DNA of 64,000 bases from Roseovarius carneus. Lineage in GTDB: Bacteria; Pseudomonadota; Alphaproteobacteria; Rhodobacterales; Rhodobacteraceae. The stretch spans positions 2,896,374-2,960,373 of the forward strand of contig NZ_JAHSPD010000001.1 of assembly GCF_020141465.1 (NCBI RefSeq), given 5' to 3'. Shown piece after piece: positions 1,828-27,654 of the stretch (within the stretch, counting starts at the first letter, position 1; every line of letters starts with the position of its first letter). The translations under genes and the position numbers were made by a program. The notes below the pieces were generated by a model. The model saw only the letters and a list, made by a program, of their open reading frames with translations. It searched no databases and had not been told where the DNA came from.

Positions 1828-2853
1828 TCACAACGCCAAATCCGCGTCCGCCCCCTCGCGCATTACGGACCGCAGCGCGGCCTCGACAAGCTCCGGCTCA
1901 GCGCCGGGCAGATGAGCACCCTCCGACAGGGTGCGCCGCCAGCCGCGCGCACCGGGCCGCCCGGCAAACAGGCCCAGCATATGGCGCGTTACTTGGCCCA
2001 GCCGCCCACCCGCGCTCAGATGCGCCTCGATATAGGGCAGCATCGCGCGCGCCGCGTCCTCGCCCGTGCGGTCGGGGGTGCTTGCACCAAAAATCCGGCG
2101 GTCGGCAGCGCCCAGAATATCCACGGGCCGGTGATAGGCCGCGCGCCCGATCATCACACCGTCAAGGCCCGCGTCCAGAAAGGCCTCCACCTCGTCCAGC
2201 GTCTCCACCCCCCCATTCACCGAGAGATGCATATGCGGGAAGAGCCCGCGCATCTGCTGCACCAGCGCATAGTTCAGCGGCGGAATATCGCGGTTTTCCT
2301 TGGGGCTCAGCCCCTGAAGCCACGCCATGCGCGCGTGAATGGCAAAGCGGGTGACCCCTGCCCCCGCCACGCGGGCCAGAAACTCGGGCAGCACCTCTTC
2401 GGGGATCTGGTCATCCACGCCAATCCGGCATTTCACGGTCACGGGGATATCCACCGCCGCGATCATCGCAGCACAGCATTCCGCCACAAGGCGCGGGCTG
2501 CGCATGAGCACGGCACCGAATGTGCCCGATTGCACCCGATCCGACGGGCAGCCCACGTTGAGATTGATCTCCGAATAACCCGCCGCCGCCCCCAACCGCG
2601 CCGCCGCCGCCAGCTCGGCAGGGTCTGAACCGCCAAGCTGAAGGGCTAGAGGCTGCTCCACGGGCGCGAAGTCCAGCAGATGCAGGGCCCCACCCCGCAC
2701 CAACGCAGGTGAGGTGACCATTTCGGTGTAAAGAAGAGCATTCTGGCTCAGCTGCCGATGAAGATACCGGCAATGGCGGTCGGTCCAGTCCATCATCGGA
2801 GCCACGGATAATCTGCTACTTACGCCAATCTGCGATTTTACCGCCTTTTCCAA
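1828..2853 (-). CDS. dusA: tRNA-dihydrouridine synthase A
   Basis: 341 residues, a full-length DusA. This flavin enzyme reduces uridines in the tRNA D-loop. The N-terminal SVAPMMDWTDRHCR block, the catalytic cysteine C102 in NVGCPSDRVQSG, the FAIHAR motif and the SVNGGV/VMIGRA FMN phosphate-binding motifs are all present. Residues 1-15 are encoded by AT-rich sequence (2806-2853), unlike the very GC-rich body. The ICE integrase lies 111 bp upstream on the other strand. The 5' end of dusA is a known integration site for tyrosine-recombinase elements, so the start codon and promoter are probably supplied by the element. Confidence 0.95.
   Translation of the reverse strand: MEKAVKSQIGVSSRLSVAPMMDWTDRHCRYLHRQLSQNALLYTEMVTSPALVRGGALHLLDFAPVEQPLALQLGGSDPAELAAAARLGAAAGYSEINLNVGCPSDRVQSGTFGAVLMRSPRLVAECCAAMIAAVDIPVTVKCRIGVDDQIPEEVLPEFLARVAGAGVTRFAIHARMAWLQGLSPKENRDIPPLNYALVQQMRGLFPHMHLSVNGGVETLDEVEAFLDAGLDGVMIGRAAYHRPVDILGAADRRIFGASTPDRTGEDAARAMLPYIEAHLSAGGRLGQVTRHMLGLFAGRPGARGWRRTLSEGAHLPGAEPELVEAALRSVMREGADADLAL
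2764..2853. other. candidate attachment site (dusA-side junction)
   Basis: The stretch 2764-2805 encodes the invariant DusA segment APMMDWTDRHCRYL, where dusA-specific integrases are known to recombine. Immediately outside it, 2806-2853 changes to AT-rich sequence encoding a non-conserved N-terminus. The core therefore probably lies within 2764-2805 and everything to its right is element DNA. The exact core cannot be fixed without the other end of the element. Confidence 0.5.
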
Positions 2854-2921
2854 TACTTAGCTCCGAGTTTCCAAGTTCGTCTATGCTCGATATCTTGCCA
2901 TTTAAGCCCATTACCTGCTAC

Positions 2922-2963
2922 ATTTACAACACGTGTTGTAAAATGAAAGGCCATGTTGTAAAT
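2922..2963. promoter_or_regulatory. three half-site repeat and perfect palindrome upstream of the integrase
   Basis: TTTACAACACGTGTTGTAAA at 2923-2942 is a perfect 20-bp palindrome. Its right half, TGTTGTAAA, recurs at 2954-2962, exactly 20 bp (two helical turns) further on, directly before the integrase ATG at 2965. Half-sites are thus at 2922-2931 (inverted), 2934-2943 and 2954-2963. They could be operator sites for a repressor of the integrase, or arm-type sites for the integrase or excisionase. No Shine-Dalgarno sequence is visible before the ATG. Confidence 0.6.
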
Positions 2964-2964
2964 C

Positions 2965-4125
2965 ATGGGAACCATCATAAAGCGTCGTCGCAAGAATGGC
3001 ACCATAGCTTGGCTCGCTCAAATCTCAGTGATGCGGCAAGGTAAAGTCTTACTTCGCGAAAGTCAGACATTCGAGCGCAGATCAACCGCTGCGGCGTGGA
3101 TCGAAAACCGCGAAGAAAGTCTTGCGCGACCCGGTGCCCTTGATGCGCTCAAATCTCAACCGAAAAGCAAGAAGGCACCGACCTTGGCCGATGCCATCGA
3201 CAAGTATGTCCAAGAAAGTAACAAACAGATCGGTCGGACCAAAACTCAGGTTCTGAAAAGCATCAAGACGTTTGATATCGCGGACAAACACTGTGACGCG
3301 ATAACCAGCGCTGACATCGTCGAATTTGCGCAAGAAAAGCTCAATAGTGGCGTTCAGCCTCAAACAGTCTCCAACTACCTCTCGCATCTCGGCGCGGTGT
3401 TCTCCATCGCCAGACCCGCATGGGGCTTTCCACTAAACGCGCAGGCTATGGAGGACGCCCGGAAAGTGGCGGACAAACTGGGTATCACTGGCAAGAGCCG
3501 CGAACGAGATCGGCGTCCCACGCTCGATGAGCTAGACCAACTGATGCAACACTTCCTCGACCGCTCGCGACGTCGCCCCACGTCAATCCCCATGCACCGG
3601 ATCATCGCCTTTGCCATCTTTTCCACTCGACGGCAGGAAGAAATCGTCCGCATTCGCTGGAAAGATCTCGACGTGGAAGGCAAACGCGTATTGGTCCGGG
3701 ACATGAAGAACCCCGGCGAAAAGATCGGCAACGATGTCTGGTGTGATCTGCAGGAACAGGCTCTGGCGATCATCGAAGCCATGCCATTGATAGAAGACGA
3801 GATATTCCCTTACTCAACGGATGCCATCAGCGCAGCGTTCACGCGCGCCTGCAAACTTCTGGAAATAGAGGGGCTGCACTTTCACGATCTGCGGCATGAC
3901 GGAGTTTCACGGCTGTTCGAGCTCGGCCTCAATATTCCGTACGTTGCCGCCAATTCAGGCCATCGGTCTTGGACGTCACTAAAGCGCTATACGCACCTAC
4001 GTCAAACTGGCGACAAGTACGCTGATTGGACTTGGCTGGCTGAAGTCACGAAGCGTGACAACACGCTCAAGTTGGTTCGAAATGGACAGTTTCCACGGAA
4101 ACGTCGCTCGGACAGAGGCGTTTAG
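2965..4125 (+). CDS. int: tyrosine-type site-specific integrase of the ICE
   Basis: 386 residues. An N-terminal arm-binding region (about 1-70) is followed by a SAM-like core-binding domain (about 71-165) and the catalytic domain (about 180-350). The catalytic set is visible: R223 in STRRQEEIVRIRW, K248 in the beta-hairpin DMKNPG, H307-x2-R310 in HFHDLRH, H333 in SGHRSW and nucleophile Y342 in LKRYTHL. It should recombine the element's att site with the 5' end of dusA beside it. Its excision partner is probably the RdfS-like protein about 24 kb away, since no excisionase gene is next to it. Confidence 0.95.
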   Translation: MGTIIKRRRKNGTIAWLAQISVMRQGKVLLRESQTFERRSTAAAWIENREESLARPGALDALKSQPKSKKAPTLADAIDKYVQESNKQIGRTKTQVLKSIKTFDIADKHCDAITSADIVEFAQEKLNSGVQPQTVSNYLSHLGAVFSIARPAWGFPLNAQAMEDARKVADKLGITGKSRERDRRPTLDELDQLMQHFLDRSRRRPTSIPMHRIIAFAIFSTRRQEEIVRIRWKDLDVEGKRVLVRDMKNPGEKIGNDVWCDLQEQALAIIEAMPLIEDEIFPYSTDAISAAFTRACKLLEIEGLHFHDLRHDGVSRLFELGLNIPYVAANSGHRSWTSLKRYTHLRQTGDKYADWTWLAEVTKRDNTLKLVRNGQFPRKRRSDRGV

Positions 4126-8408: not shown

Positions 8409-8599
8409 AGCACCACCTCAGATGTTCTTTTTTCGCTCCGACGAGCCTAGGGGGAAGCCGAGAGCTTTTCAATCGAAAGTAGTGCTGCTTGGTAGCCCAA
8501 AGCCGCCCATTAATCCTCCGCATATAAGCGGCCGGTTGGCGCATAGTAATGTCGATAACTCAACCTGTGAGTGCTACGCTGACAAAAGGAGGCAGTATC

Positions 8600-10891
8600 A
8601 TGCGGATCAAATTTATCGAGATCTCGAACTTTCGGAAGCTGAAAAATACACATCTGGATTTCGACCAAAGGACATCAATTTTGGTCGGCGCTAACAATAG
8701 CGGCAAGACTTCTGCGATGGTCGCTCTGCGCATCTTTCTCCTCTCGCCGAACCGCCTTGGGCTGCGCGACGTGACGATCGCCAACTGGACCAAGATCGAC
8801 CTCTTGGGTGAGGAGTGGGAGACGGATGCTGTATCCACGGTCGATTTTGATGCGCTCCTTCCCTCGATGGACGTCTGGCTCGACGTGCCACTCTGCGAGA
8901 TTCAGCACGTCGTACATATATTGCCGACGCTGGATTGGTCCGGCGGATCGCTGGGCGTACGACTAAATTACCATGCCAAAGACCTGGAAAAGCTAAAGGC
9001 AGAGTATCTCGCGCAGCGCAATGCAGCACGAGATGCGTCAACTACCGACCCGAAGGGAAAAGTGACCAAGATAGCGGTGTGGCCTCGCAGCCTCACCGAC
9101 TTCCTCGAACGGCGACTGCGAGCGCATGTCGAACTTTCGGCCTACCCGCTTGATCCGACTGCGGCCACGCCACCAGGCAAGAATGGTCTGGCGATACCTC
9201 AAACCTTACCCGCCAGTGCTCTTGCATTCGAACAGCCGCCTTTCAAAAATCTCATTAAGATCGACGAGATCGCGGCACAGCGTGACTTCGCCGATGCCGG
9301 CGGCAACGACGGTGGAGAAGAAAAGGGCGAGATGACAAACCGCCGTTTCAAGCGCCGTCTATCCGACCAGCTGCGCTCCTATTATGATCGCCATCTCGAC
9401 CCGTCCAAAACTCCATCTGACAAGGACTACGAGGCGCTCGGGGCGATCCAAGCTGCCGAACGCAGCTTTGACGCGCGACTTGAGGCCGGATTCGCAACTG
9501 CCTTTGAAGAACTGGAAGACCTTGGATATCCGGGGATGAGCAATCCGAAACTCAAAATCTCAACACTTCTTCGGGCGACGGATGGGCTGAAACATGGATC
9601 CTCGGTACAGTATCAAGTAGCCGATCCCTCTGGGGACGGCACCAAGACCCTCAAGCTACCCGAAGACTATTCAGGCCTCGGTTATCAGAACCTGATCGCA
9701 ATGGTGTTCATGCTGATGGGTTTTCGTGACGAATGGATGCGCGTCGAAAAGGCGGGGCTCCTCGAAGGAGTGGATGTCTCACACGAGATTCAGCCTCTCC
9801 ACTTGGTGCTTGTCGAGGAGCCGGAAGCCCATTTACATGCGCAGGTGCAGCAGGTCTTCATCAACAAGGCTTACAACCTGCTCAGAAAGCATCCCGATCT
9901 TGGAGCCGCAGACAGCTACGCCACTCAGCTAGTCGTCAGCACCCATTCCAGCCATGTTGCGCATGAGGCCGACTTCGCAAGCTTGCGATATTTTCGGCGC
10001 CGACCAGCCGTGAGTAAAGGGGAAACTCCCACCACAACGGTCGCGAATCTCTCACATATTTTTGGTGACGGCGACGAAACCAAGAGATTTGTGAAGCGTT
10101 ATCTCAAGGCGACGCATTGTGACCTGTTCTTTGCGGACGGGGTCATCTTCGTGGAAGGCCAGGCCGAGCGAATCCTAGTACCACACTTCATTCGTCATCA
10201 CTTTCCGGAGCTTTCACGTCGCTATGTCTCATTGCTCGAACTCGGTGGCAGCCATGTGCACAGTTTCCGTGATCTGATCGATGCACTTGGGATCGCAACC
10301 CTGATTATCGGTGATCTCGATGCGACTGCGGCGGTCAAAATTATCGACAAGAACGAAAATGAAACGACCCGCTGGAAATCGGCGCGCCCCGAAAAAGGAA
10401 AAGGGCAACAGACAGCCAACTCTGTTCTCAAGGAATGGCATCCCAAGAAAAAGCTGATCGACGATTTGGTGTCCCTTCCGCCCGAAGGGCATGTATCGGA
10501 CGGGGATGAGGATTACGAGCTCTATGTTGCCTATCAGAAGCCGGTGAAGATCGCTTCCAGCAGTAAGGACGACGCCATCGCCATTCCTCGAACATTCGAA
10601 GACGCTCTAGTCTTAGAGAACCTCGATGTTGTCGAAAAAATTCAAGGCTCTGTGACATCGGGCAAGATCCGCACGATCGTTGCACAAGGTCTTTCTGGAG
10701 ATGATCTCGAAGACGGGCTCTTCGAGCTATTGAAGACTGCGGAAAAAGCGGCATTCGCACTCGATTGTCTGATGCTTGAAGATCCCAAGATCTTGATGCC
10801 TCCGAGCTATATCGCGGCTGGGCTCGAATGGTTCGAACGGGCCGTCAGCAAAGATATTGCAAGAAGCGAACTCAAGACAGGGGAAAGCTGA
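8600..10891 (+). CDS. GajA-like OLD-family ATPase/TOPRIM nuclease
   Basis: 763 residues from the ATG at 8600, which has a strong AAAGGAGG site; an upstream in-frame ATG at 8549 lacks one. The N-terminal ABC-type ATPase has Walker A GANNSGKT (30-37), a signature-like SGLGYQN, Walker B LVLVEEPEAHLH (about 401-412) and an H-loop STHSSH (about 446). A C-terminal TOPRIM domain has IFVEGQAER (about 515) and IIGDLDA (about 569). With the UvrD-like helicase that follows, this is the class 2 OLD/Gabija layout. It is clearly longer than classical GajA (about 580 residues). In Gabija, GajA cuts phage DNA when nucleotides run low. Confidence 0.8.
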   Translation: MRIKFIEISNFRKLKNTHLDFDQRTSILVGANNSGKTSAMVALRIFLLSPNRLGLRDVTIANWTKIDLLGEEWETDAVSTVDFDALLPSMDVWLDVPLCEIQHVVHILPTLDWSGGSLGVRLNYHAKDLEKLKAEYLAQRNAARDASTTDPKGKVTKIAVWPRSLTDFLERRLRAHVELSAYPLDPTAATPPGKNGLAIPQTLPASALAFEQPPFKNLIKIDEIAAQRDFADAGGNDGGEEKGEMTNRRFKRRLSDQLRSYYDRHLDPSKTPSDKDYEALGAIQAAERSFDARLEAGFATAFEELEDLGYPGMSNPKLKISTLLRATDGLKHGSSVQYQVADPSGDGTKTLKLPEDYSGLGYQNLIAMVFMLMGFRDEWMRVEKAGLLEGVDVSHEIQPLHLVLVEEPEAHLHAQVQQVFINKAYNLLRKHPDLGAADSYATQLVVSTHSSHVAHEADFASLRYFRRRPAVSKGETPTTTVANLSHIFGDGDETKRFVKRYLKATHCDLFFADGVIFVEGQAERILVPHFIRHHFPELSRRYVSLLELGGSHVHSFRDLIDALGIATLIIGDLDATAAVKIIDKNENETTRWKSARPEKGKGQQTANSVLKEWHPKKKLIDDLVSLPPEGHVSDGDEDYELYVAYQKPVKIASSSKDDAIAIPRTFEDALVLENLDVVEKIQGSVTSGKIRTIVAQGLSGDDLEDGLFELLKTAEKAAFALDCLMLEDPKILMPPSYIAAGLEWFERAVSKDIARSELKTGES

Positions 10892-12810
10892 TGACGGACG
10901 TTGAGACTGCGCCGTCGGACTTCGATGATGGCGCCGACGCCCAGATACGAGACTGCTTGAACCCCCTCAATCCACGGAGCTTCTTCCTGTATGCAGGCGC
11001 GGGCTCGGGAAAGACCCGCTCCCTTAAGAACGCGCTGGATACTTTCCGCGAAGAACATGGCGAAGCCTTCAGGCGTAGCGGCAAGAAGATTGCGGTAATC
11101 ACCTATACAAATGCGGCCGCCGACGAGATCGCGGAACGCGTTGGTGAGGATTCCTTGTTTCCGATTTCAACGATTCACAGCTTTTGCTGGAAGCATATTG
11201 GAACCTACCATAGCGATATCCAAGCATGGCTGCTCGCGACACTCCCTGACGACCTAGCCGAACTGCACGAGAAGCAAGCAAAGGGGCGCGCTGGTACGAA
11301 GGCGGCGCTGGACCGCGAACGCGCAATCGCCTCGGTCGTGAGGCGTCTCGAGTGGCTTAGTACTCCTCGGCGGTTTGTTTACAATCCAAACGGAGACATT
11401 TTCGGCCAGGACTCGCTGTCCCATTCCGAGGTGCTCAAGATCACGGCGGCCTTCATCGAAACCAAACGATCAATGCAGGCAGTCCTCGTCAACAAGTATC
11501 CTTTTTTGCTCGTCGACGAGAGTCAGGACACTAACAAGGGCCTACTCGAGGCCTTCTTCGCACTTGCTGCGGCGAACAAGAACAAGTTTGCGGTGGGCTT
11601 GTTCGGGGATATGATGCAGCGGATCTTTCTTGACGGCCATCCAGAACTGGAGCGCCTCGTTCCGGAAGATTGGGCGCGTCCCGTGAAGAGAATGAATCAC
11701 CGATCGCCTCAACGCGTGATCGAGCTTGGCAATGTACTTCGCGCCCCAATTGATCGCCAACGCCAGGTGGCCCGAGACGATAGCGATGTCGGCATCGTTC
11801 GCTTGTTTGTTGCCTCCAGCAACTCGTCCGACAAGCCAGCGTTTGAGCGGCAGGTTCAGGATCGAATGGCTGAATTTTGCAACGATCCTAATTGGCGGGA
11901 TCAAGCTGGAGTTAAGGCGCTCACGCTTGAACACCATATGGCGGCTTCAAGGTACGGGTTCCTAGAGATGTTCCAGGCGCTTAACCGGGACTCGCGCCTA
12001 TCTACCGGGGTTCGGACAGGTGAACTGGCGGGCCTAAGGCTTTTTACTGAACGCGTCGCTCCACTAGTCGCGGCTGCACAGGCGAACAATGCTTTCGCGG
12101 TCATGGCTCACCTACGTGCGACTTCTCCCCTTCTTAAGCGATCAGCAATTGCTGAGAGGTCAATAACCGGCGATCCGTTGCAGACAATACGTGCAGGTGT
12201 GGACGCGGTGCTGGGCCTCGACACTGAAAGCCCAGATGCAACCTTTCTCACCGTTCTCCAATGCGTGGCGCAACACGGGCTGTTCGAGATTCCTGCTGCC
12301 TTGCAGCCGTTTGTAGCTGATGAGCCGAAGGCTGAAATTGCGGAGCCTGAAAAGACAAATGAAGAAGCAGAGTCGAACGAGGAGCAAGCAGTTGCGGAGA
12401 CGTCTCCTGAAAGCCTAGAGGCTTGGCGGGCATTTCTTGAGACTCCGTACAACCAAACGGTCCCTTTCGCCGAATATGTCAGTGATCGTGGTCCGTTCGG
12501 AACCCATCAGGGCGTAAAAGGGCTTGAGTTCGATCGTGTGCTGGTAATTCTTGACGACAGCGACGCGCGAGGCTTCCTATTTTCTTACGATAAGCTATTC
12601 GAAGCCAAGCCGCTGTCGGATACTGACCGCAAGCATCTTGCCGAAGGCACCGAAGGCGGCATTACGCGCACGCGCCGCCTGCTCTACGTCACCTGCACAC
12701 GAGCTAAGAAAAGCTTGGCGCTGGTCGCCTATTCCGAAGATCCCGATACTCTTGCAGCTTCTGCACTTCGTAACGGCTGGTTCGAAGCTCATGAGATCGA
12801 ACGACTTTGA
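10891..12810 (+). CDS. GajB-like UvrD/PcrA-type helicase
   Basis: 639 residues. The ATG overlaps the stop of the nuclease gene by one base (TGATG), indicating translational coupling. SF1A motifs in order: I AGAGSGKT (36-43), Ia ITYTNAAADEIAERV, II LLVDESQDT (about 206), III FGDMMQRIF, IV MNHRSPQRVI, V GVKGLEFDRV and VI RRLLYVTCTRAKKS (about 594-607). An acidic low-complexity insertion rich in Glu lies at about 478-515. Classical GajB is about 500 residues, so this is a longer variant. Its role is inferred from the pairing with the OLD nuclease. Confidence 0.82.
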   Translation: MTDVETAPSDFDDGADAQIRDCLNPLNPRSFFLYAGAGSGKTRSLKNALDTFREEHGEAFRRSGKKIAVITYTNAAADEIAERVGEDSLFPISTIHSFCWKHIGTYHSDIQAWLLATLPDDLAELHEKQAKGRAGTKAALDRERAIASVVRRLEWLSTPRRFVYNPNGDIFGQDSLSHSEVLKITAAFIETKRSMQAVLVNKYPFLLVDESQDTNKGLLEAFFALAAANKNKFAVGLFGDMMQRIFLDGHPELERLVPEDWARPVKRMNHRSPQRVIELGNVLRAPIDRQRQVARDDSDVGIVRLFVASSNSSDKPAFERQVQDRMAEFCNDPNWRDQAGVKALTLEHHMAASRYGFLEMFQALNRDSRLSTGVRTGELAGLRLFTERVAPLVAAAQANNAFAVMAHLRATSPLLKRSAIAERSITGDPLQTIRAGVDAVLGLDTESPDATFLTVLQCVAQHGLFEIPAALQPFVADEPKAEIAEPEKTNEEAESNEEQAVAETSPESLEAWRAFLETPYNQTVPFAEYVSDRGPFGTHQGVKGLEFDRVLVILDDSDARGFLFSYDKLFEAKPLSDTDRKHLAEGTEGGITRTRRLLYVTCTRAKKSLALVAYSEDPDTLAASALRNGWFEAHEIERL

Positions 12811-21942: not shown

Positions 21943-23769
21943 CTAGCTCTCGATCCCAAATGCAGCATTTATCTTCTTGAACAAGCGTTCTGCATTGGCA
22001 GCAGTGCCTTTTGGCAGGTCACTGATTTTCATCCAGCTGTCGAAGTCTTTTAACATCTCTGTCAGCACATCTTTCTTCTTAAGCTCACGCCCATGGCGTT
22101 GCTTCAAGGCAATCTCGACACGCTTGGCAATGAGGGTCGAACCGTCTTCTGGAAGATCTTCCAATTTGAGCGCCAGCCCGTAGGCGCGGTTTACACAGTC
22201 AAGAAACCACTCGTCTGGAAACAGGTCTTCGATCGCGACGTCCGTTTTCTTTACTCCGGCTGCTTCTCCAAGCATCAATACCCGGAAATCATGGCCAGTC
22301 TCCTCGGCGTACGCTTTGAGGTTCATATCCTTGATCTTCTCGTGCGCCTGATGGCCAGCCTCATCGGTATCGAGCAAAACCCCAGCATTCCACCTTTGGC
22401 CGATCGCAAACGCCGCATACATCGGTGCTTTGGTTGAGGTCTGCGCGGGCCACTTATATATCTGATCAGACAGCCCAACTTTGTCGCCCTTGGTCAACAG
22501 ACCTGACAGCTTGCTCAATATCAGAGCGTCAGTGCCACCTTCCACAATCAGAACTTTGCGGTTGCCAAGCATGCCGGAGAGGTCGGGCGTGAGGCCAAGC
22601 GCACTCTCAATGACTGCCATTGGAGCAGACTGGCTACTCACCACGCCATGCGTAACCCGCAAATGGTGGTCAGTGTCAGTTTCGATAATGCGAACCCGCT
22701 CAGGGTTTGCTTGATCGACCATCGAAGACAGATGGCTGGTGTACACGACCGTGTTCGTTTTCGACAGGTCTTCAAACACTCCGAGCAGGTCACGTTGGCC
22801 ACTGTAGTGGAGGTGAATGCCCGGTTCCTCCAATAGAAGCGTGCAATTCTCGAAGTCACCCTCAGATGCGTGCGTAAATTTCCATGCGAAAGAGACGTAC
22901 CATCGGAAACCAGTTGAGCGCCGATTCAGGCGCACCGGAAATCCGATCGCCGTGTCCTTTGCAAAGATGTTGAGTGTCTGGCCGTCGACGCGAATATCGA
23001 ATTCGACAAGCTTTTGCTTCCACAATTTCTGAAATTGCTTGGTGAGGTAGGTCGAAGCGGCGACGCTATCAAACTGGCGCAGTGTCCGGCCGTCAGCGCT
23101 TGCGCCCTTCTCAACAATGTCATCGAGATCAATCTCGGCAAGATCGAGTACGATCAGGATTGTTTGATCGTCGGTGGAAAGCTCATGGCGCTTGCTGCCC
23201 GCCGCATCCAAGCGGCTCTTAAGCTCGTTTAGCTCAACCTGCGCCCCGGAAAATTCATAATCTTGAATAAGAACAAAGCGCGGGACGTGCTCGCTGGCCC
23301 ATTCCGATACTTTTTCCCTGGAAATGCCCAAATCTGTCGCCGCAATGGATTTGCCCTCCTGATCGCTTAGGCTGAACCCGGTAAGGTGCCCATAGCTGCG
23401 GCGAGCAAAGAGACGAAGCCCATCCGGAGGAATTGCGATCGCGGTTTCAAGCTCATTTCCCTCGTCGTCAGTTGATATATCCGTCGCAAATTCAAACAGG
23501 GCTTCAGCTTCACCTTCATCAAAATCAAAGTAGGCCTGAGCCACTGGTTTTCCTTCGGCATTCTTTTTGCCTTTCCAGTCGTCGACTGGCCAGTCCTCAT
23601 CGGGGTTGAACCGCGTCTCGACGTAGGAGTGCAGACAATACAGCGCCTCAAAAAGATTACTCTTACCCGCTTCGTTTTGTCCGACGATTGCCGTTACATT
23701 GGTCACTTTGATCCATCCGGAGTCGATGATGTTCCGATAATTCGTGATGCAAAATTCTGATAACCGCAT
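21943..23769 (-). CDS. solitary OLD-family ATPase/TOPRIM nuclease
   Basis: 608 residues from the ATG at 23769, where the ATPase domain begins; the frame is open to 23844. The ABC ATPase has Walker A GQNEAGKSN (about 29-37), a LLLEEPGIHLHYSGQ Walker B and a YTSHLSSM H-loop. The C-terminal TOPRIM domain has VLIVEGGTDALIL and GVLLDTDEAG. This is a class 1-like OLD protein with no helicase partner, unlike the one at 8.6 kb. OLD proteins act in phage exclusion. It is the only minus-strand gene between the AbiE operon and the copper cargo, is less GC-rich than its neighbours and splits the maintenance module, so it is inserted cargo. Confidence 0.85.
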   Translation of the reverse strand: MRLSEFCITNYRNIIDSGWIKVTNVTAIVGQNEAGKSNLFEALYCLHSYVETRFNPDEDWPVDDWKGKKNAEGKPVAQAYFDFDEGEAEALFEFATDISTDDEGNELETAIAIPPDGLRLFARRSYGHLTGFSLSDQEGKSIAATDLGISREKVSEWASEHVPRFVLIQDYEFSGAQVELNELKSRLDAAGSKRHELSTDDQTILIVLDLAEIDLDDIVEKGASADGRTLRQFDSVAASTYLTKQFQKLWKQKLVEFDIRVDGQTLNIFAKDTAIGFPVRLNRRSTGFRWYVSFAWKFTHASEGDFENCTLLLEEPGIHLHYSGQRDLLGVFEDLSKTNTVVYTSHLSSMVDQANPERVRIIETDTDHHLRVTHGVVSSQSAPMAVIESALGLTPDLSGMLGNRKVLIVEGGTDALILSKLSGLLTKGDKVGLSDQIYKWPAQTSTKAPMYAAFAIGQRWNAGVLLDTDEAGHQAHEKIKDMNLKAYAEETGHDFRVLMLGEAAGVKKTDVAIEDLFPDEWFLDCVNRAYGLALKLEDLPEDGSTLIAKRVEIALKQRHGRELKKKDVLTEMLKDFDSWMKISDLPKGTAANAERLFKKINAAFGIES

Positions 23770-24119
23770 AATCTGCCCCAAATTCGATTGTTTGGCACAA
23801 TATATTCCTAGGAAGATCGTTGTGCGAGTCGTTAATCTCCGCAAGTCGCCTTTCGAACTTCACGCAGCATTGCTTGCGATGCAGCCTTTCCCGAACTTAG
23901 GTGCGACCCGGACTTAGCTCCCATACACGCGCCAGCGTCGCGCCGACGCCGCGCAGTCATCAGCCTTGATGGCTGGCGATAGCTTGCAACTTCTCGCCGA
24001 TCAGCCTCGGTGTAAGCACGCAAAACTACCTAAAACCTGCTTTCTGACCTACAATCCGCTAGCGTTGAGGTGGTGGTGGCAGGCGCGACCGATCACCTTT
24101 TTGCACGGAGGCATTCACC
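23770..24119. other. intergenic region between the OLD nuclease and the membrane protein gene
   Basis: 350 bp of mixed composition. The left part should hold the OLD gene promoter on the minus strand. The right part ends in ACGGAGG (SD) for the gene at 24120. No convincing gene, repeat or insertion scar is visible. Confidence 0.4.
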
Positions 24120-25662: not shown

Positions 25663-25917
25663 ATGATCACCGCCCGACAAACACGGGCCGCGCGCGCGTT
25701 ACTTGGTTGGACGCAGGAAACGCTCGCTGAACGGGCCCTGGTCTCATTGACCGCGTTGAAACGCCTCGAGTCGCGCCACGGCAAGCGGGTCTACGAGTCG
25801 ACCGATGATCAAGTGCGCCGGGCGCTTGAAGCCGCCGGCATCGTATTTCTGACGACCGCTCAAGGCGAAGGTGTGTTGATTAACGAGTCCGATGAGGTTG
25901 GCAAAGGAACCCGTTAG
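25663..25917 (+). CDS. QseC-like helix-turn-helix regulator
   Basis: 84 residues. An XRE-type HTH occupies about 3-55: RQTRAARALLGWTQETLAE and SLTALKRLESRHG. Residues 56-75 (IVFLTTAQGEGVLI) form a short C-terminal strand region. Size, fold and position before a DUF2285 mini-protein and the FseA-like pair match QseC of ICEMlSym(R7A), which controls the antiactivator QseM; this is inferred from synteny, not from sequence comparison. GGAGG lies upstream, and a perfect dyad overlaps the probable promoter. Confidence 0.65.
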   Translation: MITARQTRAARALLGWTQETLAERALVSLTALKRLESRHGKRVYESTDDQVRRALEAAGIVFLTTAQGEGVLINESDEVGKGTR

Positions 25918-26037: not shown

Positions 26038-26301
26038 TTGAAGAACACAGACTTCCTTGACGCACCGCCCGAAAGTGCGGTCCTGACCGATTACGACCGG
26101 ACGCATGTCACACTCTACATGCGCCTGCTGGACGCCTATGCCGACAATGCAGATTGGCAAGAAGTCGTCTCCGTCCTGTTTGCGTTCGACCCTACGAATG
26201 ATCCCGAACGTGCGCGGCACATCCACGACAGCCATCTGGCGCGTGCCAAATGGATGACGGAGCACGGCTATCGGCAACTTTTAGGCGGCGACACGCCCTG
26301 A
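26038..26301 (+). CDS. QseM-like DUF2285 mini-protein
   Basis: 87 residues from a TTG start (preceded by AAGGGGG). Nearly the whole protein is a DUF2285 domain: LTDYDRTHVTLYMRLLDAY, ADWQEVVSVLFAFDP and the diagnostic HLARAKWMTEHGYRQLL. In ICEMlSym(R7A) the small DUF2285 protein QseM binds and blocks the activators TraR and FseA. Here the FseA-like gene follows at once, so the same antiactivator role is likely. No TraR or TraI homologue lies in the window. Confidence 0.65.
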   Translation: MKNTDFLDAPPESAVLTDYDRTHVTLYMRLLDAYADNADWQEVVSVLFAFDPTNDPERARHIHDSHLARAKWMTEHGYRQLLGGDTP

Positions 26302-26415
26302 CCCCGGCAGGATACTGCCATTGCCCTATTTTTGAGCACGCTCTCAGCTTGTCTCGACTCACCTTTTGATTGAAAATCTATCCCTTAAACCAATGTGCAT
26401 GTCCGGAGGATCTCT

Positions 26416-26664
26416 ATGCCCCGTCGACCATCGCGTTGGCGCTCGGCATCAGACTACGACTATGTCGAATCCCTGACTGCACCGGACCTCGCCTGGGAAT
26501 GGTTGCGTCGAAACGTCGACTATCAAAAAGCCTATGCCCGCGCCGTTGAGAGGAAAGAGGACCCCCGTGATCTGATGCACATGATGCGTCGGTCGTGGGG
26601 GTTACGATTTCCCAATCGATCCACAGCGGACTGCCTTGCAGGCGGTTGTCTATTGGCAGCCTGA
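26416..26664 (+). CDS. FseA-like N-terminal half (DUF6499), zero frame
   Basis: 83 codons from the ATG at 26416 (SD GGAGG), ending at TGA 26662. Residues 1-66, up to RRSWGLRFP, match the DUF6499 'transcriptional regulator domain' (WRSASDYDYVESL, DLAWEWLRRNVDYQKAYA). The last 16 residues are Cys/Gly/Ala-rich and do not match the family. The conserved sequence continues instead in the +1 frame from 26615. In ICEMlSym(R7A) the equivalent pair msi172-msi171 is joined by programmed +1 frameshifting to make FseA, the excision activator. Confidence 0.75.
   Translation: MPRRPSRWRSASDYDYVESLTAPDLAWEWLRRNVDYQKAYARAVERKEDPRDLMHMMRRSWGLRFPNRSTADCLAGGCLLAA
26608..26614 (+). other. probable +1 programmed ribosomal frameshift site
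   Basis: The zero frame reads CGA-TTT-CCC-AAT; sliding one base on CCC-A gives ATC-GAT-CCA and continues into the DUF2285 half as IDPQRTALQAVVYW. Proline CCC-A is a known slip-prone context because tRNA-Pro can re-pair with CCA. Allowed limits are 26585-26661, between the last +1-frame stop (26582) and the zero-frame stop (26662). The fused product would have 256 residues. Confidence 0.65.
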
Positions 26665-27187
26665 GATAGATCCGGGCACGGTCATTCTTTCAACCAGATC
26701 GCCAATCGCAGGTCTTCAACCCGTCGATTTCCCATCGGTCGAACCGGACACTACCGTGCATGACCCGGATGGAACGAGTTTGACTTTGTCCGATGACCTT
26801 GGGGCGCTGCGCGTTCTCTTCATTGATGACGCAGGGCCCGACACGCCCCTCGTGGCGGTTATACCGCTCGATGAAACCGGTCTGGATCGCATCGAAGCGG
26901 CCTTGCGCCTCTGGCGCATGCTGCAGGGCCGTCCATCAGCATCGAATGGACGACTGACCGCTCAGCGTCGTCAAAGGTTGCGCCGGATGCTGCAAGCAAT
27001 TGACGGACATATCGACGGTGCGAGCTACCGCGATATTGCGAAAGCCCTCTATGGAAAATCCCGCATCGCTGCCGAAGCCTGGAAGACTTCGGCGCTGCGG
27101 GACAGCACGATCAGCCTCGTCCGGGACGGTCGCGCCATGATTGATGGCGGATATCGCACGCTTTTGCGTCAGCGCCGCCGGAAGTAG
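26636..27187 (+). CDS. FseA-like C-terminal half (DUF2285), +1 frame
   Basis: The frame is open from 26585; the family match starts near 26615 and a possible independent TTG start is at 26636. The region from about codon 105 is a DUF2285 domain: RRQRLRRMLQAIDGHIDG, SYRDIAKALYGKSRIAAEAW and a C-terminal RDGRAMIDGGYRTLLRQ. No ribosome binding site precedes the TTG, supporting synthesis as a frameshift fusion with the upstream DUF6499 half. The fusion would be a DNA-binding activator whose target is expected to be the RdfS-like gene promoter downstream. Confidence 0.75.
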   Translation: MQAVVYWQPEIDPGTVILSTRSPIAGLQPVDFPSVEPDTTVHDPDGTSLTLSDDLGALRVLFIDDAGPDTPLVAVIPLDETGLDRIEAALRLWRMLQGRPSASNGRLTAQRRQRLRRMLQAIDGHIDGASYRDIAKALYGKSRIAAEAWKTSALRDSTISLVRDGRAMIDGGYRTLLRQRRRK

Positions 27188-27372
27188 ACCGCTACCATTC
27201 CAACGGTCCTTCCGTCTCGATGATCATCGCCGTTGCTGCTGCGACTGGGCAAAGGGGTGCGATTCAAGCACCCGTTTCTTCCCCATCCCCCTTCCCGGTT
27301 CTTCTTCGCCAACGTGGCCGCAATCCGCCGCCCCTCTCTGGTGGCCGCATTGGAACCAACGGAGGCCCGATC

Positions 27373-27654
27373 ATGCCCGCAAATACAACCGACTTGCCGC
27401 CACGCTACCTGCGCACCCCTGAAGCAGCGCGCTTTCTGAGCCTGTCGGGCCGCACACTGGAAAAACACCGCACCTATGGCACCGGTCCCGCCTACCACAA
27501 GTTGGGTGGTCGGGTCGTCTATTCCATCGAAGACCTGCAAGCTTGGGCCAATCGCGGTGCCGTCACGTCGACGTCCGACCCCCGCGGATCAGTCTTGCCC
27601 GCAAAGCATCATGACCCTGTCGCGCTGACCCGCTCCGGCGGTCGGTCGCGCTGA
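27373..27654 (+). CDS. RdfS-like excisionase / recombination directionality factor
   Basis: 93 residues, SD GGAGG seven bases before the ATG at 27373. A winged-helix MerR/AlpA-like DNA-binding domain occupies about 8-55: YLRTPEAARFLSLSGRTLEK, GTGPAYHKLGGRVVYSIEDL and QAWANRG. The basic tail ends RSGGRSR. Size and its place after the FseA-like pair and before DUF2840/TraF correspond to RdfS, which drives ICE excision with the integrase. The assignment rests on fold and synteny. Confidence 0.7.
   Translation: MPANTTDLPPRYLRTPEAARFLSLSGRTLEKHRTYGTGPAYHKLGGRVVYSIEDLQAWANRGAVTSTSDPRGSVLPAKHHDPVALTRSGGRSR

Follow-up and report, generated by a model that had tools for sequence, protein, structure and literature searches.

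The window analysed here, 64,000 nucleotides of Roseovarius carneus (contig NZ_JAHSPD010000001.1, positions 2,896,374 to 2,960,373), looks from its gene content like an integrative conjugative element. It holds a gene of the fseA type, split over two reading frames, with the following features:

26405..26409, plus strand: GGAGG, Shine-Dalgarno sequence of the upstream fseA frame, six bases before the ATG
26416..26664, plus strand: fseA frame 0, the DUF6499 half (PF20109, E=1.3e-22), starting with ATG 26416
26596..26601, plus strand: UGGGGG, Shine-Dalgarno-like element coding for W-G (predicted anti-Shine-Dalgarno pairing, GGG enrichment)
26605..26607, plus strand: CGA (Arg), codon preceding the slip codon (CGA enrichment)
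26608..26611, plus strand: UUU-C, putative +1 slip site, tRNA-Phe moving from UUU to UUC (codon conservation)
26609..27187, plus strand: fseA +1 frame, remainder of FseA with DUF2285 (PF10074, RovC_DNA-bd; E=4.9e-37)

Frame 0 ended at a TGA (26662-26664) behind an unconserved tail. The +1 frame was open after a TGA ending at 26584 and ran up to a TAG (27185-27187), and both frames were simultaneously open from 26585 to 26661 only. Within this overlap stands CGA-TTT-CCC-A, with TTT at 26608-26610 and CCC at 26611-26613. The frame-0 stop with its tail, the extent of the overlap and the CGA-TTT-CCC-A in it had been claimed by a first-pass annotation of the sequence, and direct reading bore them out. 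No ATG, GTG or TTG was found in the +1 frame from 26585 before the TTG at 26636. Taking UUUC as a single step resulted in a stop-free joined product of 256 residues, with DUF6499 at its N-terminus, DUF2285 at its C-terminus and, at residues 26-33, AWEWLRRN, a form of the AWEFLRRN-like DUF6499 motif of the FseA family. At sequence level the two halves stand in a +1 relation at a conserved site, as in that family. By analogy, the gene likely encodes an FseA-type activator that promotes excision of its mobile element.

Homologues were collected by a Pfam-domain search and by peptide patterns not spanning the slip site, and two plasmids were added via the DUF2285 half, giving 201 loci and the window; L001, L002 and L006, being copies of the window region, were removed. 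Scripted analysis returned 200 DUF6499 hits, of which 189 had a DUF2285 partner and 11, without a partner, were left out. The offset between the halves was +1 in 140 pairs, zero in 47 and the third possible offset in two, some of the loci being near-copies (L091-L094 give identical readings; L008 agrees with L076 at the site). The FseA-type architecture with a +1 shift, as first annotated, was thus found in most pairs. From the two pairs at the third offset, L050 was restored as shifted, its slip region being in +1, and L015 was left out. The shifted set comprised 141 loci with L050; 140 carry the W-G anchor and L156 does not. Among the 47 in-frame homologues, 19 were without the anchor and stood outside the codon comparisons, for which the 28 anchored ones were used. 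Because the loci include near-copies, a non-redundant set was drawn at 70% identity, retaining 91 of the 140 anchored shifted loci.

Comparison of the loci points to the phenylalanine codon. In 134 of the 140 anchored shifted loci the fourth codon after the W of the anchor was TTT, followed by C in 129 and by T in five. TTT-C stood one codon later in L035, L197 and L199 and TTT-T one codon later in L193; L086 and L024, both shifted, had TTT at neither place. The non-redundant loci gave TTT in 87 of 91 and TTC in none, with C next in 82 and T in five. Elsewhere in the same genes TTT made up 25.6% of TTT plus TTC; for the non-redundant loci, set against 28% TTT elsewhere, the binomial p was 8e-49 (shared ancestry ignored). 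Neither A, C nor G preceded TT at the slip codon in any of the 140 anchored loci, which fits a need for tRNA-Phe to read UUU first. The codon after TTT varied over the 134 loci (CCC 68, CGC 47, eight others 19) and tracked the amino acid required in the shifted product (P in 43 and A in 35 of 87 non-redundant loci). Conservation of the +1 frame began at the slip, with P at +4 in 78 of 87. The fixed element therefore looks like UUU-Y, with the proline codon as a passenger, and the slip event is likely a shift of tRNA-Phe from UUU to UUC.

The one-step UUUC rule was also applied to 22 named relatives. It yielded a single clean product of 255-257 residues in 15, and translations of six of these aligned with the window product at 42-91% identity; it broke in six at a second in-frame TTTC, and L086 yielded one stop. 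UUU-C by itself is insufficient because of these second in-frame words and because three of the 28 anchored in-frame homologues (L149, L194, L195) have TTT-C at the site. As a separate observation, in L193, whose TTT lies one codon late, a stop comes next (TTT-TGA), giving a prfB-like arrangement.

Further candidate signals were found upstream. Predicted anti-Shine-Dalgarno pairing peaked at UGGGGG, where it averaged about -8.6 kcal/mol in 87 non-redundant shifted loci vs -5.7 in 28 in-frame homologues (p=3e-10, loci treated as independent), the latter retaining a weaker Shine-Dalgarno-like site (-5.7 vs -1.2 overall). These energies use the presumed anti-Shine-Dalgarno sequence of the host; a DNA search for the host 16S 3' end gave no match. 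In the same non-redundant set, the Gly codon of W-G was GGG in 68/86 shifted and 5/28 in-frame loci (15% elsewhere in these genes). Where the Arg codon before TTT was CGN, it was CGA in 46/55 shifted and 0/12 in-frame loci (about 12% in the rest of these genes). The Leu codon after W-G was TTA or TTG in 51/78 shifted and 11/26 in-frame loci (13% elsewhere), and is not clearly a shift-specific part of the signal. Enrichment p-values assume independent loci, though the loci share ancestry; an independent-pairs test on the tree had only two pairs on supported branches and no power.

Downstream, no 3' RNA structure was evident 7-67 bases past the slip codon (mean folding z +0.15 vs -0.23 for control), this stretch being slightly less structured than the control stretch (p=0.009; mononucleotide shuffles). 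The signal does not involve termination, since the frame-0 stop lies 2 to 237 codons past the site (140 loci). Frame 0 overlapped the DUF2285 frame in six of the 140 anchored loci (L031, L045, L061, L062 and two others), where it ran on without a stop for 162 to 237 codons beyond the slip codon; this may be chance in GC-rich DNA.

The exact 16-base motif TGGGGGTTRCGATTTC was matched four times in 385 genomes of the class, each time in fseA, and its reversed control gave no match. A comparable draw of as many genomes of this class contained 29 DUF6499 places. On these counts the exact motif is specific to fseA but far from universal, most fseA genes having variants; a looser form occurred once in this genome. 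The motif was also found in 11 stretches of viral contigs; as no DUF6499-like frame preceded it in any of them, these were taken as chance.

We consider it probable, with good confidence, that fseA would be expressed by programmed +1 frameshifting with the slip at UUU-C, this being our best explanation as a whole; L086 and the relatives with a second TTTC word lowered that confidence slightly. Four other explanations were weighed.

In Ty3-type shifting, the +1 frame is entered by out-of-frame decoding in the A site. Applied here, CGA would occupy the P site, the first U would be skipped and Phe-tRNA would read UUC directly. Such a route would account for the CGA enrichment, and the three bases from GGGGG to CGA equal the spacing reported for prfB; in L086, CTT-C one codon earlier would likewise offer TTC in the +1 frame. 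Direct decoding, however, needs only TTC at positions 2-4, yet no base but T stood ahead of TT at this codon in the 140 anchored loci, and we judge this route unlikely.

The first-pass annotation had placed the slip at the proline codon, tRNA-Pro moving from CCC to CCA. CCC-A is indeed present in the window, and slips at either codon would give an identical product, which leaves protein data alone unable to tell the two apart. L086, reading CTT-CCT-CCC-C without TTT at the site, may slip at another codon, either this CCC-C or CTT-C one codon earlier. The relatives nevertheless point away from proline: 66 of the 134 TTT-bearing shifted loci have no CCC, and the base after CCC in the other 68 was G in 51, C in eight, A in five and T in four, which leaves CCC-A after TTT in 5/134. 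The three nearest named relatives have CCC-G. A scan for host tRNAs at 30 of 36 places showed Phe(GAA), Arg(ACG), Pro(UGG) and Pro(GGG), the last of which reads CCC. A proline slip is accordingly very doubtful; the earlier interpretation holds for the programmed +1 FseA architecture and gives way on the slip codon, for which UUU-C is favoured.

Two separate proteins acting in trans might also be made, the downstream frame starting by itself with UGGGGG as its ribosome-binding site. Homologous halves were treated as separately started and ended genes in a 2022 Azorhizobium study (PMC9601964), and a Shine-Dalgarno-like element does lie ahead of the junction. No start codon was found at a common place, however: the offsets of the first ATG, GTG or TTG varied widely, 17 of 87 loci had none over a span of 60 codons, and conservation of the +1 frame sets in at the slip codon itself. 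Self-initiation is thus scarcely credible as the source of the downstream half.

A pseudogene or sequencing error, in which a gained or lost base split fseA, would be suggested by the frame break taken alone, and is dismissed as highly improbable because 140 of 189 pairs share the offset and substitutions show a third-position bias in the proper frame on each side of the site. Alignment of the window with L073, L074 and L075 showed no internal gap. Before the site, 13/22, 14/26 and 25/46 substitutions, respectively, fell on frame-0 third positions; past it, 39/55, 42/61 and 117/221 fell on third positions of the +1 frame. A missing or extra base, which the first-pass annotation had named as one finding that would overturn it, is contradicted by these relatives, and the case for programmed +1 frameshifting is much stronger than that for decay. 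The best tree of the DUF2285 halves (139 rows) needs at least 12 changes of frame state; supported branches alone require two, without indicating their direction.

The genes and sites around fseA on which the proposed mechanism draws are:

1828..2853, minus strand: dihydrouridine synthase gene, beside the integrase (PF01207, E=2.3e-79)
2965..4125, plus strand: tyrosine integrase (PF00589, E=1.9e-18)
25663..25917, plus strand: XRE-type HTH regulator (PF01381, E=4.6e-5; similar frame in L073 and L074)
26038..26301, plus strand: QseM-like lone DUF2285 protein, candidate antiactivator (PF10074, E=3.4e-7)
27251..27277, plus strand: inverted repeat AAAGGGGTGC-N7-GCACCCGTTT, 27 bases, between fseA and the excisionase-like gene
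27373..27654, plus strand: excisionase-like HTH_17 protein, candidate FseA target (PF12728, E=4.1e-8)

The QseM-like protein, 87 aa in length, has DUF2285 without DUF6499 and no further family up to E=0.1; a frame resembling its gene sits upstream of fseA in L073-L076. The core of the inverted repeat, GGGTGC-N7-GCACCC, was also present in L073 and L074 and absent from the aligned stretch of L075 and L076. By its size the repeat could be an FseA box; alternatively, it could be a terminator.

The integrase frame begins about 110 bases from the dihydrouridine synthase gene (window 1828-4125), and this adjacency suggests a dus-type insertion site for the element. Further genes of the element encode metal transport, a replication initiator, coupling and transfer proteins, and a DUF3363 protein, which we take to occupy the usual relaxase place. 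The cargo also holds a GajA/GajB-type (Gabija) pair (window 8549-12810; models E=1.8e-274 and 6.7e-235). The window thus appears to contain a conjugative element with metal and defence cargo, as originally described. A further gene, for an AAA ATPase on the minus strand (21943-23844; best defence model AriA, E=3.4e-18), could be a defence gene that stands alone or has diverged.

Under the favoured slip at UUU-C, the majority of ribosomes would stay in frame 0 and make an 82-residue DUF6499 protein. A minority would move one base forward at UUU-C (26608-26611). tRNA-Phe would decode UUU and re-pair with UUC, after which CCA-AUC-GAU would be read and the 256-residue activator completed. The slip is probably aided by pairing of the upstream UGGGGG with the anti-Shine-Dalgarno sequence and by a weakly paired CGA codon just before it, and would require no stop codon. 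By analogy with R7A, the joined FseA would activate the downstream excisionase-like gene (27373). FseA would in turn be held in check by the product of the upstream QseM-like gene (26038), through binding to its DUF6499 part. Frameshifting would thereby keep the activator scarce, and the unshifted product, also bearing the QseM-binding part, might be a decoy.

A bolder version, offered tentatively and with clearly less than even confidence, would make fseA a stop-free bacterial +1 class, UGGGGG-UUR-CGA-UUU-C. The Shine-Dalgarno-like duplex would strain the ribosome with CGA (inosine-A wobble) in the P site, tRNA-Phe would be translocated by four bases, and the excess 82-residue DUF6499 protein would be functional, soaking up QseM and setting a threshold for excision.

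Provided that the frameshift operates as it does in R7A, it would be one of the factors that set how often the mobile element leaves the chromosome. With a codon-level definition of the signal, annotators could join many split fseA genes and the mechanism becomes testable via single-codon changes. It would also place a bacterial +1 frameshift without a stop codon alongside the much studied prfB.

The first-pass annotation had suggested that frameshift control of excision extends well beyond symbiosis islands. This was already in print: Jowsey et al. (2023, PMC10359603) report that about 61% of 4709 FseA homologues need a +1 shift, describe FseA-like genes bearing a conserved +1 site from all over the gamma-, beta- and alphaproteobacteria, and mention a UGGGGG adjacent to that site. 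A frameshifted fseA in this element is expected from that survey, and the phenomenon is published biology. Neither a slip at UUU-C nor CGA enrichment was found stated in the texts searched here; the slip codon may well be given in the two Ramsay papers of 2015.

The closest known system is FseA (msi172-msi171) of ICEMlSym(R7A) in Mesorhizobium. According to the same paper (PMC10359603), DUF6499 and DUF2285 are there likewise joined by a +1 frameshift, UGGGGG lies next to the site, and the element, like that of the window, has a lone-DUF2285 protein of the QseM type and an excisionase gene. The R7A fseA is in an operon with traI2 (PMC5882170), whereas the window fseA has the QseM-like gene upstream. 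A profile of seven joined FseA-type proteins matched RovC of Yersinia (PDB 6xz5, E=7.5e-10), which, unlike FseA, is described as activating a type VI secretion system (PMC10359603). With prfB (release factor 2) the window fseA has two features in common, a slip sequence of pyrimidines and, upstream of it, a Shine-Dalgarno-like GGGGG (PMC12421855, PMC5009743). The slip sequence is CUU-U in prfB and UUU-C in fseA; as a point against a slip at UUU-C, CUU_U is described as the stronger +1 site of the two and UUU_U as the weaker (PMC5009743). A stop directly follows the slip codon in prfB, whereas CCC follows TTT in the window and none of the 140 anchored loci has a stop as the codon after the site TTT. 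Finally, and again to the disadvantage of the favoured slip, the Shine-Dalgarno-like element of prfB stands three bases before the slip sequence (PMC12421855), whereas GGGGG in the window (26597-26601) ends six bases before the TTT at 26608.
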